Source: Vibrio navarrensis
GTDB lineage: Bacteria > Pseudomonadota > Gammaproteobacteria > Enterobacterales > Vibrionaceae
Length of the DNA: 64,000 nucleotides
NCBI RefSeq assembly: GCF_015767675.1
Contig: NZ_CP065218.1
Location: 806,001-870,000, forward strand
Direction of reading: 5' to 3'
Part shown: positions 10,997 to 30,846 of the stretch, one piece after another
How the letters are laid out: the number at the start of each line of letters is the position of its first letter
Numbering within the stretch: the first letter of the stretch is position 1
Program-made: the position numbers and the translations under genes
The notes under the pieces: model-generated
Told to the model about the DNA's origin: nothing
The model's database searches: none
What the model saw: the letters and a program-made list of their open reading frames with translations, nothing else

Positions 10997-11111
10997 ATCA
11001 AACAGCCTCTATAACCGTTATTGATCAACAATGATGATTTACGGCGAAAATTAGGCGCAAAGTTAACAAAAGAAAAACAAAACATTTTTATCGAAAAGAT
11101 TGTTTTTTATT

Positions 11112-11132
11112 GTTAATCTGATGGCGATTAAC
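11112..11132. promoter_or_regulatory. Perfect inverted repeat between maoP and hdfR
   Basis: GTTAATC-tgatggc-GATTAAC: 7-bp arms, 7-base spacer, 13 bases before the hdfR start codon. It could be the LysR-type autoregulatory site of HdfR or the equivalent of maoS. The surrounding 150 bp is AT-rich. Confidence 0.5.
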
Positions 11133-11145
11133 CCGGAGAAGTGCA

Positions 11146-12042: not shown

Positions 12043-12067
12043 AACCGTTCTGGCCCCTGAGATACAA

Positions 12068-12094
12068 CAAAAAGCCTCATAACGAGGCTTTTTG
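12068..12094. terminator. Bidirectional terminator downstream of hdfR
   Basis: CAAAAAGCCTC-ataac-GAGGCTTTTTG: 11-bp stem serving two convergent genes. Confidence 0.85.
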
Positions 12095-12110
12095 TGTTTT
12101 AGGAGAGGCA

Positions 12111-12314
12111 CTACAGGTTCATTAGGCTTTCAAGAGAATCCTCAATATTGTTGCAGTGATAGGTTCGGATAAAGTTCCCATCACGGGCATTGATTTGAAT
12201 GGTTGAGATGCTTTTAGGCCCCTGAGTTTCAATGATACCCAGTGAGTCTTCCACAGAGTTGCTGGTAATAACATTGCTGTTACGCAGCACAATAATGCAG
12301 GTATGCAGATCCAT
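12111..12314 (-). CDS. Small hypothetical protein, 67 aa
   Basis: Starts at ATG 12314 behind GAAGGAAAA. The frame is open for 21 codons further upstream, without a better ribosome site. The soluble product (MDLHTCIIVLRNSNVITSN... ending ESLMNL) contains no motif I recognise. The two halves look alike in style, with beta strands followed by 'EDSLxxx', which may indicate a small beta-rich fold. It is convergent with hdfR and divergent from the alkylation-repair genes. Confidence 0.6.
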   Translation of the reverse strand: MDLHTCIIVLRNSNVITSNSVEDSLGIIETQGPKSISTIQINARDGNFIRTYHCNNIEDSLESLMNL

Positions 12315-12539
12315 AGCCGTTTTCCTTCTATCTGACGTTGCTGACCCAGCCATTAATAAGCGGTGAACTGGTGTCACAACTTTTACCTTAGTTCAGTTTG
12401 GCAAATTTGCCACAAGAATGGATGCAGCGAAGGCTCATCATTGTCGCGACATTTCATTCGTCATCATTCAGTTCCGAAAATGGCTGGTTGTGTGCGCTGT
12501 GATGTTTACAATTAGGGCATCAAGCGAAGGAGTGTTTTA

Positions 12540-13907
12540 GTGGCGATATCAGTCTATTCATCGTTGACGACAGAGCAATGCCAGCAGGCAAGAATGGCGC
12601 GTGACAGTCGTTTTGACGGCTTATTTTATGTGGCGGTAAAAACCACAGGCATCTTTTGTCGTCCGGTCTGTCCGGCTAATCTGCCGAAAGAAGAAAATGT
12701 GGAATACTACAGCGATCGCACCCAAGCGCTTGATGCCGGATATCGCCCTTGTTTGCGTTGCAGGCCAGAAAGCCACCCGGGCTCTTGGGCGTGGAAAGGC
12801 GTAGAAACCACCTTCCAGCGCGCGCTCAATCTTATTGACAGTGGCTCGTTACAGCAGCACTCTCTCACTGAACTTGCACAGCGATTAGGCGTGAGCGATC
12901 GTTATGTGCGGCAACTGTTTTCACGCTATTTGGGCATCTCGCCCAAGCAGTACGCCCAATATCAACAGTTGATGTTTGCCAAACAACTGCTGCACATGAG
13001 TAATCTCAGTGTTACAGACATCGGCTTTGCCGCGGGTTTTAACAGCACGCGTCGCTTTAATGACGCTTTTAAAGAAGTGATCCAATTGACTCCCTCACAG
13101 GTGCGGCGAGAAGTTGCGCTGCCAGCAGATGAGCAAGCGCTGATTATCCCTTTTCAGGGCGCTCTCAATTGGTCACATATGCTGAATTTCTACCGTTTGC
13201 GCGCAATTGAGGGTGTCGAGCAAGTGGATGAGAACAGCTACTCCCGCTTTGCAGATTTGGCGGGAGCGCGCGCTTGGTTTAGGGTGCAGCAAACGGCAGA
13301 ACAGCAGATGACGGTGTGGTTTCGATTAGACGATGTTGGCCAACTGCACTTGCTAGTGAAAAAAATTCGCCAAATGCTCGATCTGAATTGCAATACCGAT
13401 AACATTGAGCGCCATTTTCAGTCACTCGCTCCTGGTCTTGTCAAACAAACCGGTATTCGCATTCCCGGAGTATGGAATGCATGGGAAGCGGGCGTTCGCG
13501 CCATTTTAGGTCAGCAAGTGTCGGTTAAGGCGGCCATCGGACAGCTTAACTTGCTGGTGAGCACGTTAATGCCAGAGCCTAGTGAGCGTTGTTTCCCAAC
13601 CCCTTTGCAACTTGCTCAAGCGAATCTCGATTTTCTGCGTATGCCGCAAAGTCGTAAAGAGACCTTGCATCGCTTCGCCTGTTATATGCAAGACAACCCT
13701 GATGCGGATCCAAAAACGTGGTTAGCGCTCAAAGGGATTGGACCTTGGACGGTCAGTTATGCGCAGCTCAGGGGAGAATCGCGCCCAGATTGTTTTTTAG
13801 ATAAGGATTTGGTGGTGAAAAAAGCTTTGCTAGCTTATCCGCAACTGAACGCAAAAACGGCCTCCCCATGGGGGAGTTACGCTACTTTTCATCTATGGAA
13901 TCAATGA
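12540..13907 (+). CDS. Ada N-terminal / AraC / AlkA fusion: alkylation sensor and 3-methyladenine glycosylase
   Basis: A 455-residue DNA-repair regulator. Residues 1-80 are the Ada zinc domain with Cys40, Cys44, Cys71 and Cys74 (GIFCRPVCPA...CLRC); the first Cys accepts methyl from phosphotriesters in Ada. Residues ~90-190 are the AraC-type double helix-turn-helix. Residues ~200-450 are an AlkA-type glycosylase (GVRAILGQQVSVKAA, LKGIGPWTVSYAQLR, then FLDKDLVVKK with the catalytic Asp and PWGSYATFHLW). Ada's own C-terminal methyltransferase is absent and supplied by the next gene, one base downstream. GTG start at 12540 after GAAGGAG. Confidence 0.92.
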   Translation: MAISVYSSLTTEQCQQARMARDSRFDGLFYVAVKTTGIFCRPVCPANLPKEENVEYYSDRTQALDAGYRPCLRCRPESHPGSWAWKGVETTFQRALNLIDSGSLQQHSLTELAQRLGVSDRYVRQLFSRYLGISPKQYAQYQQLMFAKQLLHMSNLSVTDIGFAAGFNSTRRFNDAFKEVIQLTPSQVRREVALPADEQALIIPFQGALNWSHMLNFYRLRAIEGVEQVDENSYSRFADLAGARAWFRVQQTAEQQMTVWFRLDDVGQLHLLVKKIRQMLDLNCNTDNIERHFQSLAPGLVKQTGIRIPGVWNAWEAGVRAILGQQVSVKAAIGQLNLLVSTLMPEPSERCFPTPLQLAQANLDFLRMPQSRKETLHRFACYMQDNPDADPKTWLALKGIGPWTVSYAQLRGESRPDCFLDKDLVVKKALLAYPQLNAKTASPWGSYATFHLWNQ

Positions 13908-13908
13908 T

Positions 13909-14388
13909 ATGAACTATTACACTATCGCACCAAGCCCATTGGGTGAGATGACGTTGCAAGCCAATGATGAAGGCATACTTGGCATCTGGTTTACCACTCA
14001 AACGACTCTGCCAGATGATCTCGGTCAGGAAAATGCCAACCACGCCGTGCTTAGTCTGGCGTTAACTCAACTGGATGAATACTTCACTGGAAAGAGGACC
14101 CAATTCGACTTGCCGATTGCTGCTAAAGGAACCGCTTTTCAGATGCAGGTTTGGCAGGCGTTAACCACCATTCCTTACGGAGAAACATGGAGTTATCAGG
14201 AGTTAGCCAATGCGATTGGCAACCCAAAAGCAGTTCGGGCGGTGGGGCTTGCCAACGGTAAAAACCCGGTTTCAATTGTAGTACCTTGCCATCGTGTGAT
14301 TGGTAAGAACGGCAAACTCACGGGTTATGCAGGCGGAATTGAGCGGAAGCGGTGGTTATTGGAGAGAGAAAGCAATCAGGGACGATAA
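13909..14388 (+). CDS. ogt: Methylated-DNA-[protein]-cysteine S-methyltransferase
   Basis: A 159-residue suicide repair enzyme that takes O6-methylguanine methyl groups onto Cys127 in VPCHRVIG. Also seen are the AVGLANGKNP segment and YAGGIERKRWLL at the C-terminus. It starts one base after the Ada-AlkA stop, so the two form an operon that splits between two proteins what E. coli Ada carries in one, with the glycosylase added. Regulation by the methylated Ada-like sensor is inferred. Confidence 0.95.
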   Translation: MNYYTIAPSPLGEMTLQANDEGILGIWFTTQTTLPDDLGQENANHAVLSLALTQLDEYFTGKRTQFDLPIAAKGTAFQMQVWQALTTIPYGETWSYQELANAIGNPKAVRAVGLANGKNPVSIVVPCHRVIGKNGKLTGYAGGIERKRWLLERESNQGR

Positions 14389-14407
14389 GCCCCTGATTAA
14401 GTCATTG

Positions 14408-15022
14408 TTAAGCCGTTTGAATTTTTGCTTGATAGCGCCCTGGTTTGTGATTCATGGCCAAAATCAAGTTGGTGGCCACCGCGCCTAACACGGAAAGCGC
14501 AATTAGAGTTGGCTCAACAATAAACAGCGACATGATGACGATGCCGCAATCGAGCGCCATTTGCACTTTACCTGCTCGGATGCCAAAGCGCTCTTGTAGA
14601 AACAGGGCAAGAATGTTGAAGCCGCCCAAGCTCATTTTGTGGCGGAAAATGATCAGCATGCCAATCCCAATCAATCCGCCGCCCAGTAGCGCTGCGTAGA
14701 ACGGGTCAATATGCGCGATTTCAATCACGTGATGCAGATGGTCAACGGCGAAAGAGACAATCGTGACCGAGATAAAGGTGTTGATGGTAAAACGCCAACC
14801 CATGCGCAGCACGGAAAGTAGGTAAAAAGGCAAGTTGAGGGCAAAAAATACCTGACCAAAACTAAAGTCGCTGATTTTTGTCAGGAAAATTGCTAATCCA
14901 GCGGTGCCACCAGTGAGTAGTCCCACTTTGCTGAAAAAAATGACGCCGAGTGAAACCAAGGCACTACCGAGCGTCAGAGCCAATAGATTTTCTCTGAGGC
15001 TATGATCTTTATCCATTATCAT
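14408..15022 (-). CDS. YitT-family membrane protein
   Basis: A 204-residue protein with about five hydrophobic segments and the family signatures SKVGLLTGGTAGLAIFLT and FRHKMSLGGFNILALFLQERFG (DUF161/YitT). It lacks the C-terminal soluble domain of longer YitT proteins. The function is unknown; transport has been suggested for the family. Start codons are possible at 15022 and 15016 behind AAAGGAA. It is convergent with ogt. Confidence 0.82.
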   Translation of the reverse strand: MIMDKDHSLRENLLALTLGSALVSLGVIFFSKVGLLTGGTAGLAIFLTKISDFSFGQVFFALNLPFYLLSVLRMGWRFTINTFISVTIVSFAVDHLHHVIEIAHIDPFYAALLGGGLIGIGMLIIFRHKMSLGGFNILALFLQERFGIRAGKVQMALDCGIVIMSLFIVEPTLIALSVLGAVATNLILAMNHKPGRYQAKIQTA

Positions 15023-15215
15023 GATTCCTTTCTTATTTGGTCGTCAAAGACGTAAAACGGGCAAAAAACTGACTAAAGATGTCGACTATTGTGTTTTTTG
15101 TCGAGTGGCATACTGAAATCGGCAAAATGTTATGTGTTTAACAAAATTTACACAGCGGATTTGAGGTTGAGGGAAAAAATGAGTTTGCTACAAGGCGCAT
15201 ACAAGGAGAGCTTCA

Positions 15216-19206: not shown

Positions 19207-21744
19207 TTAGTTGCAGTTAGCAGGGCCCACTTCTTTCCATACGCCCCATTGACCAGATTTGGTTGGATCATCACCTTGAGTCCACCATTTCGCTTGCCAA
19301 GTTTTGTCTGCGTAAGTGACTTGCTGACCACCAGTGTAAACGGCGGACGCATCCCATGCATTACTACAGGTGCTGCCGCTGTCCTTCTTCGCCACCACAA
19401 CCGTTGTAGAAGCGACCGAGCTTGCTAAGCCATCACTCACGGTGACCGAGAAAACTAGGTTAGTATCTGCGCTGTATTCTGCGGCGGTGAAGGTCACTTT
19501 CGAGCCGCTGACTTGTGCGTTCAGCCCTTGTGGCAACTGCCAAGTGTAAGTTAATACGTCGTTGTCCGCATCGGAAGAAGCCGAAGCATCTACTACCACT
19601 ATATCACCCGCGTTGGCTGTTGCAGGCGCGCTCACCTTCGCAACTGGCGCGGTGTTGACTGGGCCAGTATCTTTCGCTTTCACTGTGACCACCACCGTAT
19701 CGATTGCACTGGCACCATCAGCATCAGTGACGGTCAGTTGGAACGCCAAAGATTGATCGGCGGCCACTTCCGCTGCGCTAAAGCTGGCGGACGCGCTGTT
19801 TGCGCCAGTTAATGTCACCGTTGTACCGCTGACTTGCTTCCACGCATAGCTAGTGATTGGGCCTTCCGCGTCTTTGGATGCAGAGCCATCGAGCGTCACA
19901 GTAGCAGGACCGACAACAGTGATGTCAGCGCCCGCATTAGCCGTGGGTTTTTTGTTGGGTGGTGTCACCACGCTGCCAGCCAAACCTTCATGCATAGCAT
20001 TGAGGATATCGCCGTTATCGGCATCAATTTCCCACGAGAACAAGCCCGCTAAGCCTTGCGCTTTCGCATAAGCACCTTTGGCGAGCACTGAGCGATGGTC
20101 ATCAAAGGTGATCAGCGTTCCTTTGCTACGGTTCCAAACGTACGGCGCTTCAGCTTGTGCATCATAGCCATATTCAAAGCCATTGATGCCGGTATTATCT
20201 GGCCCTAGCATGTAAGACTTAATGCCTTTGTAATCGATGACACCATCCTCCCAAACACCTTGGGCTGTGCTGCCTTTCAGTTTGCCTGTGCCTGTGCCTG
20301 TCATCGGATCGGTTGGGTCGGTGAGGGTGCTCGGCATCACGCCTTCCCAACCACGGCCATACATCGCCGTTCCTAGTACCAACTTGTTCGCAGGTACGCC
20401 TTGTGCAAGCAACAACTGAATGCCGTGATCGGCGGTGTACGCAGGGCCTTTGTATGGTACGCCATTCTCATCGACGCCAGTACCGTCACATTGGCCGGGG
20501 CGCATAAAGTTACCACAGTACAATGCCGTTTGATGTCCAGGCACATTGTTCCAACCGCCGTAGAAGTCATACGTCATGGCAAAGATGTAATCCATGTATT
20601 GGATTGCATCGGCATAGTTGACATCTTCGATCTTGTCATGGCCGACACCGATAGCGGAAGTCAGCTCGTAAGTTTTGCCTGTTTCTGCTTCTAACTCGTC
20701 TAGCATGGCGCGCAGTTCACGCATCAGCGCCACATATGCAGGGCCGTCATTTATCGGATCGCCTTTATCTGCTGCTGCGCCGTCACCGCCAGGAAATTCC
20801 CAGTCGATATCAACGCCGTCGTAAAACTTCCATGTGGTCAGGAAGCGTTTTACCGAGGCAACAAAGGTGTCACGGTTTTTCTTGTCAACGAAGTCATAGA
20901 ATGGGTCAGACAAAGTCCAGCCGCCGATAGATGGGATGATTTTCAGATCAGGATAACGCTGTTTGAGCGCCATCATCATCGCGTAGTTGCCTTTGATTGG
21001 CGTGCTGTACTGATGCCCGGCTTGTGGGAAACTTTTTTGGTAAGCGGCCCACGGGTCGTGGATCACCACTTCATAATCTGGCACTCCCTGACAGGCGGTT
21101 TGCAGTGCGTTGAAACTGTTGCCGCCAACTGATTTGACCGATTCATTTGGACCACAGATAGGGATAAAACCGTAGAGAATATGAGTGAGATTTTGTGCCG
21201 GAAGGTTATCCACTGTGTAGTTGCGGCCATAGATGCCCCATTCAACAAAGTAAGTGCCTACTACGGTATTTTTATCCGTGTTGTAAGACTTGTTATTGTG
21301 GTCAACATTCATGACTAGCGGTTTTAAGTGCGCACCATCGGTATCGGCAATGGTAATTTCTGCGGGGGCACTTTTTGCGCAGCCTGTGACATCACAAGCT
21401 TCGATTTCCATCTGGAACAAGCCGCCTTTGCCATACTGGAAAGCGGCTGTGGTCTGGCTGCCAGAAATCGCACCAGAGGCCACTTTGACCCCATCAAAGT
21501 AGATATTGTACGTATCGCCAGTATTGCCACTCCATTGATTGAATTTCACCGATATGGTGGCCTGGTCATGATATTTTACCATCTGGTTGTAACCAGCCGT
21601 GGTTTCCATCGCGAGTTCAATTTTTGAAAACTGCAGATTGTTGGAGCCATACAGATCCAAGCTTGGTGCGGTCGGTACGGCAAGCGCGGCTCCGGAAAGA
21701 GCCAACGTAATACTCGCTGCACACAGGTTTAATTTAGTCATCAT
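19207..21744 (-). CDS. chiA: Secreted GH18 chitinase, ChiA type, with PKD repeats and CBM5/12
   Basis: An 845-residue extracellular chitinase. The signal peptide ends near residue 22 (GAALA). Residues ~25-135 form the ChiN fibronectin-like domain. Residues ~160-590 are the GH18 barrel with SIGGW and DGVDIDWE (Asp309, Asp312, Asp314 and catalytic Glu316). Two PKD-like beta domains (~605-690 and ~698-785) follow, then a C-terminal chitin-binding domain with the aromatic motif AKWWTQGDDP. ATGATG at the start makes the exact first Met uncertain by one codon. The products feed the GlcNAc pathway of which nagB is a part. A palindromic operator-like site lies 119 bases upstream. Confidence 0.95.
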   Translation of the reverse strand: MMTKLNLCAASITLALSGAALAVPTAPSLDLYGSNNLQFSKIELAMETTAGYNQMVKYHDQATISVKFNQWSGNTGDTYNIYFDGVKVASGAISGSQTTAAFQYGKGGLFQMEIEACDVTGCAKSAPAEITIADTDGAHLKPLVMNVDHNNKSYNTDKNTVVGTYFVEWGIYGRNYTVDNLPAQNLTHILYGFIPICGPNESVKSVGGNSFNALQTACQGVPDYEVVIHDPWAAYQKSFPQAGHQYSTPIKGNYAMMMALKQRYPDLKIIPSIGGWTLSDPFYDFVDKKNRDTFVASVKRFLTTWKFYDGVDIDWEFPGGDGAAADKGDPINDGPAYVALMRELRAMLDELEAETGKTYELTSAIGVGHDKIEDVNYADAIQYMDYIFAMTYDFYGGWNNVPGHQTALYCGNFMRPGQCDGTGVDENGVPYKGPAYTADHGIQLLLAQGVPANKLVLGTAMYGRGWEGVMPSTLTDPTDPMTGTGTGKLKGSTAQGVWEDGVIDYKGIKSYMLGPDNTGINGFEYGYDAQAEAPYVWNRSKGTLITFDDHRSVLAKGAYAKAQGLAGLFSWEIDADNGDILNAMHEGLAGSVVTPPNKKPTANAGADITVVGPATVTLDGSASKDAEGPITSYAWKQVSGTTVTLTGANSASASFSAAEVAADQSLAFQLTVTDADGASAIDTVVVTVKAKDTGPVNTAPVAKVSAPATANAGDIVVVDASASSDADNDVLTYTWQLPQGLNAQVSGSKVTFTAAEYSADTNLVFSVTVSDGLASSVASTTVVVAKKDSGSTCSNAWDASAVYTGGQQVTYADKTWQAKWWTQGDDPTKSGQWGVWKEVGPANCN

Positions 21745-21862
21745 GTTTCTCTCAGTCCTTGAATGTTATGTCATTAAAATAAGAGACATAATCTGCCAGT
21801 GAATGAGTTCACGCGGCATCATCAACAGTATTGAAGAGTCTTTTTTTTCAGCAAAAAAAATT

Positions 21863-21872
21863 AAAGCGCTTT
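21863..21872. promoter_or_regulatory. LacI-family-like palindrome upstream of the chitinase
   Basis: AAAGCGCTTT is a perfect 10-bp palindrome with the central GCGC typical of many LacI-family operators, next to an A-rich tract. No regulator gene is adjacent. Confidence 0.35.
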
Positions 21873-22030
21873 TCGAGTGACCAGAGAGAAATCGATGGAA
21901 GAAAAGTACGTGTTACATTGGAAATGGAACCGTGGCATAAAGTTTTATAAATTATCGTACAGCATCGTGAAAATTTTGCAGTTTGACATAATTTGGCCAT
22001 ATGTCAGTGATTTCACCATCGGAGAATTCC

Positions 22031-22546
22031 TCAATTGGAGATGTCGAAATGTTCTCGTAATGCTTGGCGACGATCTTGCGCCGAACCGTCAACACTTTGC
22101 AAAATGGTGTCTTCATAGCCTTTTTTCACCAGCCGCTGAGATGGAGAGTCAGGGACGATACGGCGTAGTTGAGGGGAATTGTCGTTACCGGTCAGTTGGT
22201 AGACGGTCAAACCAATCCCCGTCTCAATGGTGATGCGTTTGCCATTAAACTGATAGCTGGTGGCGATCAAACGATTGTTGCGATAAACGCCTGTCTCACT
22301 CAAGGTCAGTATTTCGGTTTGATAGGGGGGCGCACCAATTTCAATCCAATCACCATACACATTCGCTGGGTTAATGTATTTCTGGTATTCGATATAAATT
22401 CGGTAGGAAAAATAAGTCACTAAGGCAAGGAAAAACAGCGTTACTGTTGAGGCAATCAAAGTGCGCCGGATGCGACGCCTTCTTTCTGCTGCTTCTCTAT
22501 TGTCGTCCAGTTTACGATTTTCGTTGGTGGCTTTACTTGTGTTCAT
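22031..22546 (-). CDS. DUF2850 family membrane-anchored protein
   Basis: A 171-residue protein typical of Vibrio. A highly charged, Arg-rich N-terminus (REAAERRRRIRR) is followed by one membrane helix (about 28-50). A periplasmic domain follows, with the family-type VYGDWIEIGAPPYQTEIL, GVYRNNRLIATSYQFNG and GLTVYQL. The positive-inside rule places the C-terminal domain outside. The function is unknown. It is monocistronic. Confidence 0.8.
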   Translation of the reverse strand: MNTSKATNENRKLDDNREAAERRRRIRRTLIASTVTLFFLALVTYFSYRIYIEYQKYINPANVYGDWIEIGAPPYQTEILTLSETGVYRNNRLIATSYQFNGKRITIETGIGLTVYQLTGNDNSPQLRRIVPDSPSQRLVKKGYEDTILQSVDGSAQDRRQALREHFDISN

Positions 22547-22748
22547 ACATCATCCTTGTTCATGGCTAATAGTGGTTTTTTTGTCCCCAATTAGCAACAT
22601 TTCCCTCCGAAAGTTTGTACTTTTCTGTGTGATCGATGTGGTGATGAGCTTTTTTATCGCCACGCGAGGAATGGCTTGAGGTCAATGGGAAAACACGGTA
22701 AAAAGAGGTTCCGCATCCAGCGGTAATTGAAGTGTTTAAGGATAAACA

Positions 22749-23030
22749 ATGATCAAAGAAAACAGCTATTTTGCAGGTACCGTTAAATCTCTTGGCTTCG
22801 AACAAAATGGCGAAGACAGTAGCGTGGGTGTGATGTTGCCAGGCAATTACACTTTCGGTACCGATGCCCCTGAGCGCATGACTGTGATTAAAGGTTCCTT
22901 GGTCATTAAGCGCGCCGGAGAGGATACGTGGAGTACCTACAATGCAGGTGAAGCGTTTGAAGTGGCGGGAAAATCTTCTTTCGATTTACAGGTTGAAATC
23001 GCCACTGCTTATCTGTGCGAATACTTATAA
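22749..23030 (+). CDS. ppnP: Pyrimidine/purine nucleoside phosphorylase PpnP (YaiE)
   Basis: A 93-residue single-domain cupin that phosphorolyses nucleosides to base and ribose-1-phosphate. It matches E. coli YaiE/PpnP in length and motifs: NSYFAGTVKSLGF, SVGVMLPGNYTFGT, APERMTVIKGSL, FEVAGKSSFDL and a C-terminal CEYL. It ends just before the left boundary of the insertion described at 23,071. Confidence 0.95.
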   Translation: MIKENSYFAGTVKSLGFEQNGEDSSVGVMLPGNYTFGTDAPERMTVIKGSLVIKRAGEDTWSTYNAGEAFEVAGKSSFDLQVEIATAYLCEYL

Positions 23031-23035
23031 AAACA

Positions 23036-23063
23036 AAGGGGTCCGAATCTCGGGCCCTTTTCT
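23036..23063 (+). terminator. Terminator after ppnP
   Basis: GGGTCCGA-atc-TCGGGCCC imperfect stem followed by TTTTCTCT, ending at the left copy of the TAATTA repeat. Confidence 0.65.
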
Positions 23064-23064
23064 C

Positions 23065-23070
23065 TAATTA
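23065..23070 (+). repeat. Target-site duplication, left copy (TAATTA)
   Basis: TAATTA immediately outside the left inverted repeat. The same six bases occur immediately outside the right inverted repeat at 28229-28234. Confidence 0.7.
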
Positions 23071-23087
23071 ACCTGAGATCGGTTTAA
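23071..23087 (+). repeat. Terminal inverted repeat, left
   Basis: ACCTGAGATCGGTTTAA, matching 14 of 17 positions of the complement of the right end at 28212-28228. The IS982 transposase stop codon lies within it. Confidence 0.7.
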
Positions 23088-23895
23088 CCCACCGCCATCA
23101 GTCCTGACTTTTCGGTGTCAGTGATATTTAGCGATGGCTTTTCTGGCTTTAGACAGTAAGCGATTAAGCCACCAAGTAAATTCAGCATGAAACCATGTAA
23201 GCTCCTATGGTGAGAGTGCTCAATTTGAGAGATGTTTTTCAGTTGGTCATTGATGGTCTCAATGACGAACCTTTTTGGCCACATCACTCTGTCCCAAGCA
23301 GCAAGAAATTCAGGTTTCCTATTCTTACGGTGAGTCGTTATCAAGGTAATTCAATCGTCCTTCAAATCGTCGCTAAGGGCTTTACTGATATAGCCTTTGT
23401 CCGCAAGCCTATCGAGCAGCCCTTTTGATAATTCACGAACGGGTTTTCTATCGTCCGTATTCGCAGGCGTGAGTTTGGCGGCAACGATATCACCAAGGTG
23501 ATTCGTGGTGATGTGCAGCTTAAACCCATAAAACCACCCTATTGAGCTTTTTCCTCTCGCCGCTGTCCCTTGAAATACTTTGTGCTTTGGGATACGTAAG
23601 CTGTGACAGACCTTGATACTCGTAGAGTCAATAAACTCCATGCCTGTAGGCTCTCCTTTCAGATAGGTGAAGAAAGAACTGAGAGGGACTAATACGGAAG
23701 GCATGACTTCAAGAAAACGCGTGTCGCTGAGCAGGGTTGGAAATTCATTCTTGTGGTATCGGTGGATAATGCCGAGATAGAAGTTCTTAAAATCCCGTTG
23801 GTGCGACATATGAAAAGCAATAATGATGGTCATGACTTCGCTTTCGGACATGCGACCTTTGCGATGACGCTTACGTTCCCCACTCCCAAGCTGAA
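23084..23895 (-). pseudogene. IS982-family transposase, 5'-truncated with an in-frame stop
   Basis: The frame reads [19 protein letters not shown], then YHKNEFPTLLSDTRF, FIDSTSIKVCHSLRIPKHK, GKSSIGWFYGFKLHI and ETINDQLKNISQIEHSHHRS. This matches the IS982 DDE transposase. A TGA at 23351-23353 interrupts it between LKDD and ITLITTHRKN, with both parts in the same frame, so it is a single nonsense change. The first ~35 residues are missing and replaced by cydA sequence, with the junction near 23,895. The copy is inactive. Confidence 0.85.
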
Positions 23896-24093
23896 GTTAG
23901 TCGCGACGCCCACTGCGGAGTTAATCCCGAGTAACTTACCCCAGAACTTGGTCATGTCCTTGTAGAGGGTTTTTCCCGTCACGACGAACAAAGATTCCAT
24001 AACGGTGAGCAAGAAAGACAAACCTATGGTCAGTGGGACGAATATAAAGTGATAGAGTGCGGTACTAGCGAACTGAAACCGAGACAGAAGCAA
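23896..24093 (-). pseudogene. Fragment of cytochrome bd oxidase subunit I (cydA/cioA 5' end)
   Basis: About 60 codons read [35 protein letters not shown] and [13 protein letters not shown], the unmistakable N-terminus of cytochrome bd subunit I. Similarity stops at GVAT, where IS982 sequence begins. An ATG preceded by AAGGAG at 24100 is out of frame with it, so the 5' end is also damaged. A hairpin CCCGCTA...TAGCGGG lies just upstream. The fragment suggests that a cydA once followed the DoxX gene and was removed when the IS recombined. Confidence 0.8.
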
Positions 24094-24164
24094 ACATAAG
24101 GGCTCCTTCCCGCTAACAGAGTAGCGGGTTAGATAAGGTTATTATTGGTCTGTTTAGTTAAGCG

Positions 24165-24788
24165 TTAAAGCTTGGTGTTGCGCGTCAATTGCGCCTTTGC
24201 TAATGTGCGAGAGAAGGGTTTTCTCAACCAGTAATCTAAGCTTACGTAGCGACCACCGCCATAGAAGAACAGCACCAGCAACATCACAAAGTAGGTGGTC
24301 GTGAACCCCATACCGTTGTTGAGCATCACAGGGTCACCCAATTCGGTGATGTAGTTGTATCGACCTGGGAAGTTGGTTGCTAACCATTCCATAAAGCCGT
24401 TCAAACGTACGGTTGCTTCCATGCTGCTGGTGGCGATGGCATCCCAACCGTGTTTCCAGTGCACCATTGCGCTAGCAACGCTCATCAAGAAAATCATCGG
24501 AATCGACATCACTCGGGTAAACAAACCCAATGCGATACAAATACAGCCGAGAACTTCCGTACCTGCGGCAAGAAACGCTAACAACTCGGGAAATGGTAAG
24601 TTCAAACCACCATCTGCGGTGGATGCGCCAAACCACGCGACGGTGCCAGAGAAGCCCAACACCTTAGAGCGAGCACCGACAAAAATGACCGGAATGAGGT
24701 AGAGACGAATCGCAAGCAACGCTAAGTAATCGTATCTTCTGCATTTCTCGACGAGACCGTCGAACCAATTGAGGGCTGACTTAATCAT
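24165..24788 (-). CDS. DoxX-family membrane protein of the MNIO cluster
   Basis: A 207-residue protein with four or more hydrophobic helices. The DoxX pattern is visible (LALLAIRLYLIPVIFVGARSK over residues 23-43, LPFPELLAFLAAGTEVLGC, LGLFTRVMSIPMIFLM). DoxX-like proteins are commonly the last gene of bufferin-type operons. The start overlaps the DUF2063 stop by 4 bases, so it is co-translated. The role is unknown; membrane redox or peptide export support has been proposed. Confidence 0.85.
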   Translation of the reverse strand: MIKSALNWFDGLVEKCRRYDYLALLAIRLYLIPVIFVGARSKVLGFSGTVAWFGASTADGGLNLPFPELLAFLAAGTEVLGCICIALGLFTRVMSIPMIFLMSVASAMVHWKHGWDAIATSSMEATVRLNGFMEWLATNFPGRYNYITELGDPVMLNNGMGFTTTYFVMLLVLFFYGGGRYVSLDYWLRKPFSRTLAKAQLTRNTKL

Positions 24789-25522
24789 AATTTTTCTCCT
24801 GAAGGGCGGACGCTGACGAGTCCTAGTTCACTGAAGTGTTGAGCCCACTCCATGAAACTGAATCTGGCGAGTTGCTGAGCAATCATTTGTTGTAGTTGAG
24901 TCAGAGTCAGAGTCAGGTTTGGTTGCTGTTGTAATAACTGAATCAATGCGACATCCACTTCTCTGAGCTTTTGCGATATCACATGATGCTGTGAGTTCCG
25001 ATACACGCCATAAAATACAGGGTGACGCCTGTCAGTGAGAAAAGTCACGGAGTCTTGATGCAGCAAGAAAGGCACTTCGAGCAGCTTTAATGTTGGGTTG
25101 AGTTGCAGCACTTGGTTCTCTTCGAATATCGGATTCGGTGAAGAAGTGAATGCCGCGACTAAGGTGTCAATCTCTACATTGAACGCCACCCATTCATATT
25201 CCAACAACGCCATCTGGTCGGCAGAAATGGAGCTGGAATCTTGATGCGCTTTCTGTTGCAAAAACTGAACAAACTCGGTGGCAATATGATGAAACTCAGG
25301 TTCGGATGCGCCATGTATCACCACAAAGTCATCCACCATGCGTTCAAGTTGTTCATCAGCGAACTGCGAAGAAAATAGAGGGAACGTATTCGCAACGACA
25401 CCCAAGATGTTGTCGCGGATAAATTCGCTATATCGACACAGCGCATGCTGATTCATAGGCGTGCGAATCAGAGCCGTTATGGACTCAGTTTGCGCGCGCA
25501 TTTTGCTAGGAGGTTTAAGCAT
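24785..25522 (-). CDS. DUF2063 family partner protein (BufC/HvfC/MbnC-like)
   Basis: A 245-residue soluble protein. The ATG at 25522 overlaps the DUF692 stop by 8 bases with AAGC spacing, and the family fold begins here; the upstream open frame is the shadow of DUF692. Conserved DUF2063 features include YSEFIRDNILGVVANTFPLF, ERMVDDFVV, EFHHIATEFVQFL, LLEYEWVAFNVE and an N-terminal Gln/Arg region. In MbnBC and HvfBC the equivalent protein docks the precursor peptide onto the oxidase. Order and overlaps support the same task here. Confidence 0.85.
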   Translation of the reverse strand: MLKPPSKMRAQTESITALIRTPMNQHALCRYSEFIRDNILGVVANTFPLFSSQFADEQLERMVDDFVVIHGASEPEFHHIATEFVQFLQQKAHQDSSSISADQMALLEYEWVAFNVEIDTLVAAFTSSPNPIFEENQVLQLNPTLKLLEVPFLLHQDSVTFLTDRRHPVFYGVYRNSQHHVISQKLREVDVALIQLLQQQPNLTLTLTQLQQMIAQQLARFSFMEWAQHFSELGLVSVRPSGEKL

Positions 25523-26381
25523 TGAGCACCTCCTTACACAACACTTCGAGTGTTTGGCTGAAATCCAAGATCTCACCATGAATGCTGCGAAGCTCTTCGG
25601 CCAGAACAAGCAGCGACGGCACATTGTGGTCGCGCTCAAGCAGCAAAGGCTTGCTGCCATGCACCGAGTAGGTGTAACGAGCCAGATCAATCACTTCATC
25701 AGGTACGGGTTTACCATGAGTATCGAGCAAGAAGTCGTCACGCTCTTTCAAGTGACCCGCAATGTGGTAATAACGAATCGCGTCGCTTGGTAAAGTGCTT
25801 AGCATGTCGTAAGGGCAGAAATGATGATTTCGGCTGTTGACGAACACATTGTTGATGTCGATCAGCAGCTCACATCCACTGCGCTCACTCACTTCAGCGA
25901 TAAACTCGCCCTCTGGCATTTCATGTCCGTAATCGTGGTAGTAAGAGATGTTCTCTAACGCCAATGGACGCTGAATAATGTCTTGCACGCGTTGAATGCG
26001 TTCGACCAAATACGGAATGTTCTCTTTATGTCGAGGGATCGGAAGCAGTTCATACAAATAGCCCTGATTGTCTCTAGAGAAACTCAGATGTTCGCTATAG
26101 ATGTCGATATTAAATTCATCGAGAAAGCGTGCGACGCCTCGTACAAAAGACTCGTTTATCGGCTGGCAATCACCAATCGATAAGCTCAAGCCATGAGCGA
26201 CAAGAGGATAATATTGAGCAATGTCTTGCAGCTGTTCACGTTTCAAGCCGCCAATATTCATCCAGTTTTCCGGTGCTAATTCGAGGAAATTGATATCTGG
26301 GTGTTCGGGCAACTGACACAGTAAATCAACGTGTTCGCTGCGCAGCCCAATCCCTTTTGATGTATCGGTTATTGTCCGCAT
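25515..26381 (-). CDS. DUF692 multinuclear non-heme iron-dependent oxidase (MNIO; BufB/HvfB-like)
   Basis: A 288-residue TIM-barrel oxidase. The metal-ligand motifs of the family are all present in order: VAHGLSLSIGD, YSEHLSF, ALENISYYHDYG, LIDINNVFVNSRNH, HIAGHLK, DTHGKPVPDEV and LLERDHNVP. Members (MbnB, HvfB, BufB, TglH) modify Cys or other residues of ribosomal peptides with O2, for example to oxazolone-thioamide or thiooxazole. The start overlaps the Cys-peptide gene by 13 bases and its end overlaps DUF2063, so precursor, oxidase and partner are translated together. It should be active, as no key residue is missing. Confidence 0.93.
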   Translation of the reverse strand: MRTITDTSKGIGLRSEHVDLLCQLPEHPDINFLELAPENWMNIGGLKREQLQDIAQYYPLVAHGLSLSIGDCQPINESFVRGVARFLDEFNIDIYSEHLSFSRDNQGYLYELLPIPRHKENIPYLVERIQRVQDIIQRPLALENISYYHDYGHEMPEGEFIAEVSERSGCELLIDINNVFVNSRNHHFCPYDMLSTLPSDAIRYYHIAGHLKERDDFLLDTHGKPVPDEVIDLARYTYSVHGSKPLLLERDHNVPSLLVLAEELRSIHGEILDFSQTLEVLCKEVLNA

Positions 26382-26683
26382 ACCCCACCTGTGATTTTGC
26401 TTTTGGTTAATTTGATGGTTTCAGCTGAAGGGTTAATGCCTTCACCTGTCACACCACATTTACCGTCACGGGCGCGTACCAACCGGCCTTGCGGATCATC
26501 TTTCAACTCTTGTTTCTCAAAGCGTTTCTCTGTACCACATTTACCAGCCGCACACTTACCGCCATGTTGAGAGCTGGATTGAGCTTCTACGGGAGCTTCT
26601 GTGGGTACATCAGCAAACGCCATGCCTGAGTTTAAAGTAATGACAGACGTCATCGCGATAGATAGAGCGAGTTTATTGTTCAT
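26369..26683 (-). CDS. Secreted Cys-peptide precursor with GKC motifs (bufferin/HvfA-like)
   Basis: A 104-residue peptide with a signal sequence (cleavage near Ala24, GMAFA). The mature part has only four Cys, at 44, 49, 76 and 102. Three sit in GKC motifs (GGKCAAGKCG and DGKCG), which resemble the EGKCG repeats of HvfA-type copper-binding RiPPs; the last is in GGVCGQ at the very C-terminus. MNIO enzymes convert such Cys to metal-binding heterocycles. The spacing and the terminal GGVCGQ differ from the canonical DUF2282 bufferins, and there is a charged insert between the Cys pairs. It is translated in overlap with the MBL-fold gene before it and DUF692 after it. Confidence 0.85.
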   Translation of the reverse strand: MNNKLALSIAMTSVITLNSGMAFADVPTEAPVEAQSSSQHGGKCAAGKCGTEKRFEKQELKDDPQGRLVRARDGKCGVTGEGINPSAETIKLTKSKITGGVCGQ

Positions 26684-27629
26684 GAGACATCTCCTTCGCT
26701 GCGCTCATTGGGTAGCTAGATAAGTCGTGACCAGCGATAACTTGACCGTGGTAGTACTCTTTAACGATCTTGATGGAAGCGGGTTTGAGTTTTAGACCTA
26801 AGCCCATCCAGTGGTTAAGCACCAAGAGTTTTGGATTTACTTCTGCGGCGATCTTGCCGACAACCGATGGCTTAGCGTGCAGAAATGACGAGACTTCGTC
26901 GGCTTCTTCATGAATTGCCAATGGCATCAATAAGATGTCCGCACCTTTAGCGAAGTCGATGAAGTCAGGGTTACTGCCGTTTTGGTCGGCGGAAATCACC
27001 ATCACTCCTTCGGCACTTTCGATTCGAAAAGCGAGGCAAGGTACGTCGCCGTGTGGGATGCCTAGTGCATAAATGGTCAACCCATCTTGCTCGTACACCT
27101 TGGTGCCTTGGGAAGTTTTGTATGGCACATCCGTAATAGTGATAGGGAACAAGCCATCACTGCCATCAAACAAACCATTCAAGTATGCGTAAGCGCCTTT
27201 ATTACCGTCGAAAAGCGCTTGCATGTAACCGGTTAGGCTAGGGAATGCAGAGCCCGCTTTCGGACCGGCAATATCGAGTGGATCTTCACGATCAAAGAAG
27301 TAACCACCTTTTAGCAGGGCTGGAACGTCGGCGACGTGGTCGGTGTGAAAGTGGCTTAAACCAAGGAAGTCTAAGTCTTCCAGTTTGCCGCCCGCTTGAC
27401 CGAAACGCAGATAGACACCGCCACCGGCATCGATCATCACGCGTGATTTTCCTTTCCACCAAACCAGTTCACCAGACGATGCGCGAAGGTCATCAGAAAT
27501 TGGTCCGCCAGAGCCAAGAAGCTGCAAAGTAAAATCTTTGTCGAGCGGTTCGAGAGAGATCGCGTAACTGTTGGCGGCTCCGAGCGATAACCCCAGAGCC
27601 AGCACTAACGCTTTTAAAGGCTGTTTCAT
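26673..27629 (-). CDS. Secreted metallo-beta-lactamase-fold hydrolase leading the MNIO operon
   Basis: A 318-residue protein with a signal peptide (cleavage near ANSYA, residue 23). It carries a complete MBL metal site: SHFHTDHVAD, later SADQNG with Asp, and LNHWMGLG. The C-terminal GHDLSSY motif supplies another His. It is expected in the periplasm. It starts the five-gene operon and overlaps the Cys-peptide by 11 bases. An MBL enzyme as first gene of a bufferin-type operon is not the standard arrangement I know. It could process the modified peptide or a toxic metabolite. AAAAGG lies 8 bases upstream of the ATG. Confidence 0.87.
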   Translation of the reverse strand: MKQPLKALVLALGLSLGAANSYAISLEPLDKDFTLQLLGSGGPISDDLRASSGELVWWKGKSRVMIDAGGGVYLRFGQAGGKLEDLDFLGLSHFHTDHVADVPALLKGGYFFDREDPLDIAGPKAGSAFPSLTGYMQALFDGNKGAYAYLNGLFDGSDGLFPITITDVPYKTSQGTKVYEQDGLTIYALGIPHGDVPCLAFRIESAEGVMVISADQNGSNPDFIDFAKGADILLMPLAIHEEADEVSSFLHAKPSVVGKIAAEVNPKLLVLNHWMGLGLKLKPASIKIVKEYYHGQVIAGHDLSSYPMSAAKEMSHEQ

Positions 27630-27961
27630 ATCGAATACCTTTTCTTATTTGTTTTCTTTGGGTGAGCATCCAAAGAAGAGTTGAAGAGGCAAGAAAAACG
27701 ATTTGTTTTTGATGTCCGTCAAAGCACGGGAATAAGATATCCAATATTGGTGGTTAATTATATCTAGTAATTTTAAAGCCTTGTTCAGGTAAATTGAACG
27801 TTATTGATTTGAGCAGAACAAGCATCAGAATGTAAAAAGGCACCGCGAAGGGTAATGCCCTTGTTTCTTGTGTATTTTCCAGACATTTTCCCGTCTTAGA
27901 GATCGACATTTTTACCGGAGTATGATCAATTATTGGTTTTAAGAATGAAGCCTATAATGCC
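27630..27961. promoter_or_regulatory. Upstream region of the MNIO operon
   Basis: A 332-bp AT-rich interval without a supportable gene. It should contain the operon promoter. The only internal symmetry noted is GTTCA-ggtaaat-TGAAC at 27783-27799. No Fur box or clear ECF-type promoter was recognised. Confidence 0.3.
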
Positions 27962-28185
27962 ATGAATATCTCCTACCGTTTTAAGCTGATCTGTGAAGAA
28001 ATTGCTGAACTTAACGAACTCACCAGTAAAGGGAAGCACAACGCCAGAAAGCTAAAGCGTGCTCAGATCCTTTTACTGGCAAATCACAGGCAACATACAG
28101 ACGCTGAAATAGGTCAGCTCTTAAATACCAGTACTTCAACGGTCTAAAGAACCAAACGCGGCTTTGTCGAAAGATCTGATCGCAG
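27962..28185 (+). pseudogene. IS630-family transposase, N-terminal fragment
   Basis: The frame begins MNISYRFKLICEEIAELNEL, then KHNARKLKRAQILLLANHRQ, TDAEIGQLLNTSTSTV, a TAA, and continues in the same frame RTKRGFVERS. This is the helix-turn-helix start of IS630-type transposases. It has one nonsense codon and no catalytic domain. It lies between the MNIO operon promoter and the right end of the insertion. Confidence 0.75.
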
Positions 28186-28211
28186 AACCCGCTTTTAGTT
28201 CCCTTCAATTC

Positions 28212-28228
28212 TTAACCCGAGTTCAGGT
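28212..28228 (-). repeat. Terminal inverted repeat, right
   Basis: The complement reads ACCTGAACTCGGGTTAA, matching 14 of 17 positions of the left end. Confidence 0.7.
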
Positions 28229-28234
28229 TAATTA
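28229..28234 (+). repeat. Target-site duplication, right copy (TAATTA)
   Basis: Direct repeat of 23065-23070. Its last three bases are the complement of the pirin stop codon. Confidence 0.7.
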
Positions 28235-29074
28235 GACAAAGTGACCTGTTTGGTAATCTTTAATAGCTTGCTCAATTTCTTCCACGGTGTTCATCACAAA
28301 TGGGCCGCAGTGCACGATGGGTTCATGGATTGGCATTCCAGCGAGAATTAGGGCGCCACTTTCCTCTTGCGCCGACAGTTTCAGTTGTTCTGCGTTGCTC
28401 AAGACGCCGAGTTGCCCTGCACTGACAAGGTGTTGGTCAATGGCAATTTTCCCTTGGTAGACAAATACTAAACATTGAAAGTCTGCCGGGATCTCGACCG
28501 TGAGCTCATGGGAGGCGTTGCTGCGCCAATCGGCAATGGTCATGGCTATCGAACTGCTTTGCAGTGGGCCAGCGATCTCATGCGCATCGATAGATAGCGC
28601 TCCGGCAATCACGCGAACTATGCCCCAGTCAGGATGGCTTTTTTCGGTAATGCTCTCAGGCTGGAAATCGTGGTATTGCGCTGGCGACATTTTGTTTTTG
28701 GCTGGCTGGTTAATCCAGATTTGAAACCCATGCAGCTGCCCATCCATCATAATCGGCATTTCGCTGTGTATCACGCCGCGACCTGCCGCCATCCATTGAG
28801 CTCCACCACTTCTCAGTTCTCCGACATTCCCCATGTGATCTTTGTGCTGAAAATGGCCATTGAGCATATAGGTCAAGGTTTCAATACCGCGATGCGGGTG
28901 CGGTGGAAAGCCGCCGATATAGTCGGCCGCCTTATCTGATTTCAGCTCGTCAATCATCAGAAAAGGAGAAAAGTTCGGTTGGTTAAAACCCGCGACACGA
29001 CGAATATTAACCCCATCACCATCTGAGGTTCGAACGGCGCGATGGAGTTGTTTTACAGTGCGGTATGAGGACAT
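28232..29074 (-). CDS. Pirin-family protein (bicupin)
   Basis: A 280-residue double-cupin protein. The iron-binding N-terminal cupin is clear (FPPHPHRGIETLTYML with His, GHFQHKDHMGN, and HSEMPI). The second half is the usual C-terminal cupin without metal ligands. Relatives have quercetinase or regulatory roles; the function here is unknown. The stop codon coincides with the right TAATTA repeat, so the insertion left the coding sequence intact. A moderate SD (CAAGGAGTC) lies upstream. Confidence 0.92.
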   Translation of the reverse strand: MSSYRTVKQLHRAVRTSDGDGVNIRRVAGFNQPNFSPFLMIDELKSDKAADYIGGFPPHPHRGIETLTYMLNGHFQHKDHMGNVGELRSGGAQWMAAGRGVIHSEMPIMMDGQLHGFQIWINQPAKNKMSPAQYHDFQPESITEKSHPDWGIVRVIAGALSIDAHEIAGPLQSSSIAMTIADWRSNASHELTVEIPADFQCLVFVYQGKIAIDQHLVSAGQLGVLSNAEQLKLSAQEESGALILAGMPIHEPIVHCGPFVMNTVEEIEQAIKDYQTGHFV

Positions 29075-29328
29075 GGCTGACTCCTTGTTTTTCCAATGAG
29101 TTTAATGACATTCGTCGAATGAGAGCAGGTTGGAAAGTTGTTCAACATGTTCGAAAGATTTGAAAACCAGCAAGTGTTTTGGCGAGAAAATTGGCATCCT
29201 GATCTGGACAATTCAGCATGTCGGAAACACATGCTTACGGTTTTCACTCTCATTTGAGAGAGGTATTTAAATCGTCATAGGGGGAATTGACTATACTAAC
29301 AATAGCCTAGTCAAAACGGAGGTGTAGT

Positions 29329-29604
29329 GTGTCTGTACAACCGAAGCACAGTGACCATTCCCCTCGCTATGAAGTGCCGGATCTGACCAACGAGCAGCGG
29401 CATAGATTTACCTCGGTGGCGAACAAAGCGCAGGTAAGAAAAGAACAGTTGGAAGAGCGCCCTACTATTATTGAAGCGGCCAAACGGGCAGCGTTAAAGC
29501 CTGTGGTACAACCGCGGCCAAACAAAATAAATAAAGTGCGTTATGCTATTTGGCTATGCACTTTTTTAGCGGTCTGTTTGTGGCTGATGTATATGGCGGG
29601 TTAG
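29329..29604 (+). CDS. Hypothetical C-tail-anchored small protein, 91 aa
   Basis: A GTG start at 29329 follows ACGGAGGTG. The first ~65 residues are hydrophilic and rich in charged residues and proline (EERPTIIEAAKRAALKP). A single hydrophobic helix (about 70-90, YAIWLCTFLAVCLWLMYM) ends the protein, so it should be tail-anchored in the inner membrane. No family is recognised. Confidence 0.65.
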   Translation: MSVQPKHSDHSPRYEVPDLTNEQRHRFTSVANKAQVRKEQLEERPTIIEAAKRAALKPVVQPRPNKINKVRYAIWLCTFLAVCLWLMYMAG

Positions 29605-29652
29605 TTAGGCTCATTGGATGAATGTTGTTCCTTTTAGGCTTTGTGCGAATCG

Positions 29653-30846
29653 TTAATATTTGCTCGGGCGTTGGCGAGGTATCAAGGGTGACACATTCGA
29701 CATAGAGGCAGTCTGATACGTTTCCAACGGGTGACTAAAGTGGTTTTGCTCGTCCTCGTTGTAGTAAGTGAAACGATTCTTGCCTGCGTGCTTGGCTTTG
29801 TACATGGCTTTGTCCGCGCAGCGTGTCAATTCTGAGAGCTCAAAGGCATCTTGCCCGTATATCGCCGCACCTACACTTAAGGTCAAACCTTGAATCCGCT
29901 GATTCGCTTGATAGCCAGTGCGATAGAGCGTAATGATGCGTTTGAGGATGTTGTCCAGATCTTGGCGATTTTTTACCTCATAGAGCATCAAAACAAATTC
30001 ATCGCCAGCGAAACGGGCGATGGAATAATCATTCTTGTCGGTGCGACGATCTTTATTGCGGATGTTATTTTTCAGCCTTCGAGCAAAGTGTTGCAGCACC
30101 TTATCGCCAACATCATGGCCGTAGTTGTCATTGATGGTTTTAAAATTGTCGATATCAATGAAGATAAGCGCGGTGATGCAAGTCGTGGGCGTGGCGTCTA
30201 TATCTTTGAGCTTCTCTTTTGCCCAGATCTCGAAACTCCAGCGATTGGCTAACCCAGTGAGCTTATCGGTATAGGCGAGATCTTCGATGCCTTCGAGATA
30301 GAGAGAATGGACGTAGTTGATCAACCGGTAGTGGTAAAACGCAAAGGCATGACAAATAAGGCTAGTGAAAATTAAGGCGATCACAAGGCTGTAGGCCGTT
30401 TGGATCGGATACCCTTGCACGGGATGGCTGACAAGCAGAATCACGCAAACCGTAAGATAGAAAAGCGAGTTCAGTAATACGCCGATTTTAAAACGGTTAA
30501 GTAGGATAACTGCGCTTAGAATGGGGAACAACCACAGCAAGCGATCTGGGTTTGGTGTGGTGTGGAAAATCATCGGCATTGCGCCAAGCAATAGAATGGC
30601 ACTCAAGATCAGGTCGGCATTAAGGCCCTTACGGCTGTGCTGAAGGTAAGCAAAAACCAATAAGCTCAACAAAGCAAACGCACCATTGAGTAGCGCAATA
30701 CTCAGATGAGCCGCCAACGCTTGTTCAATAGTGTGGTAGAGAAACAGCCCGCAGGACGCGAGTGACCCAATGCTGACAATTTTGCGCTTTCTCGTCAGCC
30801 TTATATCTGCCATTTCTTCGATATGTTGTCCTGCTAAAGTGGCCAT
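29653..30846 (-). CDS. Membrane diguanylate cyclase (GGDEF domain)
   Basis: A 397-residue protein. About six hydrophobic segments (residues ~25-185) form an uncharacterised membrane sensor. The GGDEF domain follows from ~195: DKLTGLANRWSFE, IDIDNFKTINDNYGHDVGD, and the active loop RFAGDEFVLML. The loop is AGDEF instead of GGDEF, a substitution found in some active cyclases. RRTD upstream may be an inhibitory-site remnant. It makes cyclic di-GMP if active. Confidence 0.88.
   Translation of the reverse strand: MATLAGQHIEEMADIRLTRKRKIVSIGSLASCGLFLYHTIEQALAAHLSIALLNGAFALLSLLVFAYLQHSRKGLNADLILSAILLLGAMPMIFHTTPNPDRLLWLFPILSAVILLNRFKIGVLLNSLFYLTVCVILLVSHPVQGYPIQTAYSLVIALIFTSLICHAFAFYHYRLINYVHSLYLEGIEDLAYTDKLTGLANRWSFEIWAKEKLKDIDATPTTCITALIFIDIDNFKTINDNYGHDVGDKVLQHFARRLKNNIRNKDRRTDKNDYSIARFAGDEFVLMLYEVKNRQDLDNILKRIITLYRTGYQANQRIQGLTLSVGAAIYGQDAFELSELTRCADKAMYKAKHAGKNRFTYYNEDEQNHFSHPLETYQTASMSNVSPLIPRQRPSKY

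Follow-up and report, generated by a model that had tools for sequence, protein, structure and literature searches.

An IS982-ended unit lacking an intact transposase holds a Harveyi-clade MNIO peptide operon between ppnP and pirin in Vibrio navarrensis

Mobile insertion cassettes (MICs) are known from MIC231 of B. cereus and from the qnrD cassette of Proteeae, and MIC231A1 is described as moved in trans by IS231A (PMC3913671). In the IS982 family of insertion sequences (ISs), direct repeats, where present, measure 2-10 bp, and for ISVsa6 of Aliivibrio salmonicida the ends are given as 17 bp long and the repeat as 6 bp (PMC7335449, its Table 1); in the main text of this 2020 family review the words passenger, composite and MITE have no occurrence. 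On the peptide side, precursors with a CxxxxC motif that accompany MNIO, DUF2063, DoxX and Lactamase_B_2 (54% of the group) proteins constitute a described family (PMC12452194, section 15), and the main text of that source contains none of the words oxidase, cyd, mobile, horizontal or plasmid. Here we analyze a 64,000-nucleotide stretch of the V. navarrensis genome (the window; NCBI RefSeq assembly GCF_015767675.1, contig NZ_CP065218.1, positions 806,001 to 870,000, forward strand), in which a 5158-bp unit with IS982 ends carries a foreign five-gene MNIO operon between ppnP and a pirin gene.

The unit shows the hallmarks of a MIC, namely IS ends, passenger genes, a target duplication and no functional transposase, the state of the latter being read from the sequence. 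In these respects it is like MIC231 (PMC3913671), from which it differs in that its ends are of the IS982 and not the IS231 family, its passenger is a 4-kb operon, a broken transposase piece is retained and its movement in trans is inferred. With the IS982 family, and with ISVsa6 by its published description, it shares ends starting with AC, 17-bp ends, a 6-bp repeat, a DDE transposase and elements of about 1 kb (PMC7335449), whereas ISVsa6 and the family are plain ISs. The gene content agrees with CxxxxC-type MNIO clusters, since a precursor with a CxxxxC motif and a signal peptide, the latter judged by eye, stands beside MNIO, DUF2063, DoxX and Lactamase_B_2 proteins; unlike the clusters described in PMC12452194, however, this one sits inside an IS-ended unit and its relatives continue into cydA-cydB. 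The MNIO enzyme and partner of the oxazolin/HvfABCX system of Haemophilus (PMC13419390) fall, broadly, in the families seen here, and the HvfX model scores above its cut-off in the unit, but the HvfB and HvfC models remain below theirs and the precursor has no EGKCG repeats, the mark of the oxazolin class. Titles and abstract openings in the literature disclosed neither an IS982 unit with passenger genes nor a Vibrio IS982 composite transposon, and listings on DUF692 genes in transposons disclosed no such unit. Thus MIC elements as such are already known, while at this depth of search an IS982-ended, multi-gene version acting as a carrier of MNIO metallophores was not found in print.

The unit spans positions 23071-28228, with a copy of TAATTA on each side (Table 1). 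Its ends, ACCTGAGATCGGTTTAA and (complement) ACCTGAACTCGGGTTAA, are equal at 14 of 17 positions, and the coordinates and sequence bear out the original prediction of a unit of about 5.16 kb with matched ends and TAATTA flanks. Alone, such a repeat pair is weak evidence, because the window has three pairs (the unit included) that lie 1-10 kb apart, agree at 14/17 or more end positions and share their outer 6-mers, and 40 dinucleotide shuffles gave 0.3 on average. The two other inverted pairs, at 11072-15140 and 20673-30450, probably arose by chance. The borders are settled because both ends are homologous to IS982 and because empty sites exist in sister species. In comparison with a complete IS982 of 994 bp from the V. 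parahaemolyticus plasmid pVPH2, one edge of the unit corresponds to the left end of the element and the other to the right end, in direct order, which answers in the affirmative the proposed check of whether the ends relate to an IS. In the sole transposase gene about 23 N-terminal codons are missing and a stop interrupts the frame at 23351-23353, so that it is not intact.

The check proposed in the original prediction was a search of related genomes for the ppnP-pirin junction without the insert, expected to read TTTTCTCTAATTAGACAAAG. This junction is present in two sister species, where it reads TTTTCTCTACCTAGACAAAT (G142; 3 mismatches, with no gap where the flanks meet) and TTTTCTTTAGACAAAA (G087; 4 bp shorter); at the join itself, TCTCTACCTAGACA in G142 and TCTTTAGACA in G087, both are insert-free. 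Of 227 Vibrio genomes, at least these two match the flanks joined at TAATTA end to end, at 93%. When the unit was compared with the 227 genomes, two candidate regions being scored in each, V. navarrensis itself was the only one among the listed matches to span the joins. In at least seven more genomes (G248, G103, G185, G140, G130, G160, G164) 101-252 bp separate the two flank matches, whose order is unchanged; in G247 the distance is about 1.5 kb among the matches listed. These results support the insertion of a mobile element, with a 6-bp duplication, between ppnP and pirin. The duplication falls within the size range of IS982 direct repeats; yet, contrary to what had been expected, the palindromic nature of TAATTA leaves the empty site unable to separate a duplication of 6 bp from ends of which TTA is a part. 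Other IS982 copies can make this distinction: a copy of the unit's subtype in G191 lacks TTA and TAA alike next to its ends, and an intact IS982 on C3 of V. navarrensis is flanked by a 7-bp repeat, TAATATT.

Two side observations concern the same block in the sister species. The pirin gene of G142 is split by a 1.24-kb insertion (L155:6803-8046; site equivalent to window 28889-28897) with a near 9-bp repeat and a 383-residue, transposase-sized open frame, about 660 bp from the join; it leaves the empty site untouched. The contig with the ppnP-pirin block measures 3.24 Mb in G142 but 1.3-1.4 Mb in G087 and V. navarrensis, possibly the result of an exchange between replicons.

Inside its ends the unit is a mosaic. 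Counting on the minus strand, with unit position 1 (U1) at window 28228, the order is IS982 (U1-67), IS630 (U58-376), cargo (U376-4329) and IS982 (U4331-5158), and none of the three internal joins falls at an IS terminus; the IS630/cargo join has about 4 nt common to both sides. The IS630 fragment, of 319 bp, reaches neither the edge of the unit nor either end of the 1491-nt full copy, whose limits are an estimate from its terminal repeats. The original prediction had placed IS982 and IS630 remnants at opposite ends; instead, both outer ends are IS982 and the IS630 piece is internal. An open reading frame fused across the cydA/IS982 join also occurs on two contigs of a protein collection, perhaps from one strain, and was not used as evidence.

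The cargo consists of a five-gene operon on the minus strand, encoding an MBL-fold hydrolase, a precursor, an MNIO enzyme, a DUF2063 partner and a DoxX protein, together with its own upstream region. The prediction of a foreign MNIO peptide operon is upheld; "bufferin-type", the name it had been given, is loose, as the precursor is without the DUF2282 domain of bufferin 1 and has the CxxxxC motif of a separate family (PMC12452194). Indeed, the precursor gave no match in Pfam or NCBIfam, and none to DUF2282 at E 0.001. Its four cysteines are invariant in 19/19 aligned sequences, among them two from Sphingomonas and one from a Klebsiella plasmid, and are arranged as CAAGKC (15/19) or CASGKC (4/19) followed by DGxC and xCG. 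The DoxX gene has lost its stop, making the product 8 residues longer than its V. harveyi counterpart. Upstream of its operon, V. sagamiensis has an additional DoxX/HvfX copy, which is partial (L048:6750-7175).

Table 1. Features of the unit and its flanks, in window positions; IS982 reference nt refer to the pVPH2 element
Feature	Position	Strand	Basis or remark
ppnP, left flank gene	22749..23030	+	Pfam PF06865, 1.6e-32
TAATTA, left copy of target duplication	23065..23070	.	end analysis and empty sites
IS982 right end with transposase from about codon 24, reference nt 164-994 (U4331-5158)	23071..23898	-	78% to pVPH2 IS982; NCBIfam transpos_IS982 9.7e-47
Junction J3, cydA to IS982 nt 164	23898..23900	.	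without clear microhomology
cydA fragment, ~200 nt, frame-shifted near start	23900..24097	-	Pfam PF01654 4e-24; V. harveyi gene here 531 aa
DoxX/HvfX-family membrane protein, 207 aa	24165..24788	-	NF050144 1e-59, above cut-off
DUF2063/HvfC-family partner	24785..25522	-	PF09836; NF050145 below cut-off (109 vs 142 bits); start set by relatives
MNIO enzyme (MbnB_TglH_ChrH, HvfB-like), 288 aa	25515..26381	-	PF05114 3.9e-91; NF003818 below cut-off (322 vs 360 bits)
Precursor peptide, 104 aa	26369..26683	-	four invariant Cys in alignment; signal peptide judged by eye
MBL-fold hydrolase (Lactamase_B_2)	26673..27629	-	PF12706 2.9e-9
Operon upstream region retained from donor	27630..27853	-	homologous to V. 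harveyi and V. jasicida as far as 27853
Internal IS630 fragment, nt 933-1250 of 1491-nt stretch (U58-376)	27853..28171	+	93% to G142 copies, 90% to V. alginolyticus plasmid
Junction J1, IS982/IS630	28162-28171	.	10-nt near-match
IS982 left end, reference nt 1-67 (U1-67)	28162..28228	-	91% over 67 nt
TAATTA, right copy of target duplication	28229..28234	.	its TTA is the pirin stop codon
pirin gene, right flank	28232..29074	-	Pfam PF02678 7e-34, PF05726 1.5e-26

The operon is foreign and probably comes from the Harveyi clade. Over 3954 nt the cargo is 94% identical to V. jasicida (G127) and V. harveyi (G030), and over a shorter stretch 90% identical to V. sagamiensis, while 11.7 kb of neighboring host DNA matches V. 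harveyi/V. jasicida at 71-76% wherever a matching piece exceeds 1.2 kb (shorter pieces, some of which may be paralogous, give 64 to 89%). The same host stretch is matched at 91% in G142 and at 87 and 94%, in two pieces, in G087, and no match to the cargo was found in these sisters with two candidates scored per genome. In a tree of 14 cargo rows the unit groups with V. jasicida, V. harveyi and V. sagamiensis with support 100/100, the inner order being unsure. The MNIO genes of the sisters, two in G142 and three in G087 with all candidates scored, reach 338-347 bits, and the unit's gene and its V. harveyi/V. jasicida counterparts 304-307 bits; told apart by score, V. navarrensis has three MNIO genes, that of the unit and two of the higher-scoring kind. 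These last two lie at C2:880896-881693, about 11 kb beyond the window, and C1:3451226-3452017, and have matches of similar score in the sisters. The genes for the MBL hydrolase, precursor, MNIO enzyme and DoxX protein have no internal stops and show dN/dS values of 0.016-0.111 against V. harveyi/V. jasicida, which partly reflect the donor because the period includes time spent there; the frame of the HvfC-family gene is likewise open. The operon is thus open and mostly conserved, while the IS and cydA scraps seem to decay.

Scoring of all 18 candidates found no other full copy of the unit's IS982 subtype in V. navarrensis; all that turned up were scraps 32 and 39 bp long. The C3 element encodes a 299-aa transposase and differs from the unit at 2/17 positions of each end, its subtype being about 60% identical to the unit's in DNA. 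A miniature 174-bp element made of IS982 ends only, with TAATTA on both sides, is found at G101:C19:84089-84262 (L203) and G247:C2:736789-736962 (L204), which count as one insertion because their flanks are identical; it indicates that ends of this kind have transposed with no transposase gene between them, and into the same target. One correctly oriented end pair lies 4.9 kb apart at L230, but with 4 mismatches per end and unequal flanks, and in the plasmid collection 0/150 matching records cover 80% of the unit in one place. A cargo-free ancestor in G142 (IS982 split by IS630, C2:163336-164781) was considered and rejected, as no IS982 left end lies beyond the IS630; on C2 of G142 (L153:4405-6782) an IS630 copy directly adjoins an IS982 that lost its left end. 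A break at nt 67 common to the miniature IS982 elements was also unsupported, nt 1-68 being better conserved and the elements diverging differently past it.

We hypothesize that the unit is a MIC-like, non-autonomous cassette in which IS982 ends enclose a Harveyi-clade, CxxxxC-type MNIO metallophore operon, moved in trans, a reading in which our confidence and our doubt are evenly balanced. The cassette would have been assembled in another lineage by illegitimate joins of an IS982, an IS630 scrap and a segment of Harveyi-clade chromosome, and would then have inserted, with its 6-bp duplication, between ppnP and pirin after the split from the sister species, moved by an IS982 transposase acting in trans. 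The operon probably yields a thiooxazole-type peptide, and copper binding by it is suggested by analogy with bufferins and oxazolin (as described in PMC12452194 and PMC13419390). Assembly before arrival is favored by the lack of another full copy of the subtype in this genome and by the closeness of the IS982 breakpoints, and mobilization in trans is plausible because the miniature relative exists. Several points weigh against this proposal. The unit is known at one place only, so its movement as a whole has not been observed, and one-piece movement is the weakest step, as an eroded composite or an invaded resident IS982 fits the joins equally. That the C3 transposase acts on the unit is a guess, given the distance between the two subtypes. 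An exact target repeat is absent from five other full copies of the subtype (G191, G211, G217, G172 and pVPH2; best 5/6, in G172), and no convincing second cargo unit was found beside 14 loci with a single IS982 end, searched over 11-20 kb. A second IS630 scrap in the V. navarrensis genome (C1:2705141, 96%) means that the IS630 piece need not have arrived with the cargo. Finally, changes specific to the unit in four genes comprise 25 silent and 11 amino-acid changing ones, compared with 33 and 4 in V. harveyi, 24 and 7 in V. jasicida and 68 and 40 in V. sagamiensis; the unit is therefore not the most constrained branch, as its changing share is higher than that of V. harveyi or V. jasicida.

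The original prediction saw a composite transposon, which goes beyond what remains, one partial transposase copy and 67 nt of the other end. In a true composite, two full IS982 copies in direct order would have surrounded IS630, the operon and cydAB, and three later deletions would have taken the inner parts. The direct order of the ends and the colinear segments agree with this, and a single simple deletion could account for each join, short near-matches being present at two of the three. However, the breakpoints at nt 67 and 164 are only 97 nt apart in a 994-nt element and the pieces do not overlap, which would be luck for two eroded copies but is expected of one element with cargo; a single element therefore fits as well, and we regard the composite as a serious though rather improbable account. 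The divergence of the two pieces, which we tried as a test of one copy against two, has no bearing here, being powerless because nt 1-57 are better conserved than nt 164-994 in 21/21 pairs. Another account, which we judge unlikely, is that a plain IS982 resided at ppnP-pirin first and that Harveyi-clade DNA, taken up for example by natural transformation, later joined it by illegitimate recombination, in which case the duplication and empty site speak for the IS alone. This accounts just as well for the duplication, for there being one set of ends and for the illegitimate joins, but it requires a chance 4.3-kb insertion by such joins inside a 1-kb element, in a genome without another full copy of that subtype. 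Vertical inheritance, with the operon ancestral at the site and lost in the sisters, can practically be discounted: we found no evidence for it, it is contradicted by the precise empty site in two sisters and the close flank matches in the further genomes, and the cargo is far closer to the Harveyi clade than the neighboring DNA is.

The cydA remnant places the cassette proposed here beside a wider gene arrangement. In the 15 operon-bearing loci compared (L046-L060; L055 is a 4.6-kb contig), CydA and CydB are encoded directly downstream of the operon in eight (L046, L047, L049, L054, L056-L059), CydAB lie upstream in one, a cydA stub is present in two and four, including L055, have no CydA match; in the unit, cydA ends after about 200 nt. 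The two stubs, in V. hepatarius (L050:12248-12421) and V. pectenicida (L051:12248-12436), stand behind the operon, comprise the first 58-69 codons of cydA and give way to other sequence; they indicate that the oxidase arm was lost in other lineages too. Three operon-bearing plasmids were examined. Two enterobacterial ones (L241, L242), of E. albertii (p1RM9976) and Pectobacterium (Drgb3), carry in this order MBL, precursor, MNIO, partner, DoxX, cydA, cydB and cydX; the Klebsiella plasmid has a different cydAB, upstream and behind IS1634. We tentatively suggest, while inclining to doubt, that there is a wider mobile module of seven genes (MBL, CxxxxC precursor, MNIO, partner, DoxX, CydA, CydB), in which a copper-binding peptide would tie up copper while a copper-free terminal oxidase sustains respiration, that its peptide arm is what the unit carries as cargo, and that this arm is spread by itself, in trans, by means of the IS982-ended cassette. 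No literature joining MNIO, cytochrome bd and copper was found.

This locus offers a junction-resolved case of a putative metallophore operon that lies between IS982 ends and has crossed a species border, with the foreign DNA, the empty site and the joins all visible. If the unit moved as one, the IS982 family would be able to carry multi-gene cargo. The MNIO peptide arm can exist apart from the cydAB arm, and the unexplained pairing of peptide and oxidase becomes directly testable.

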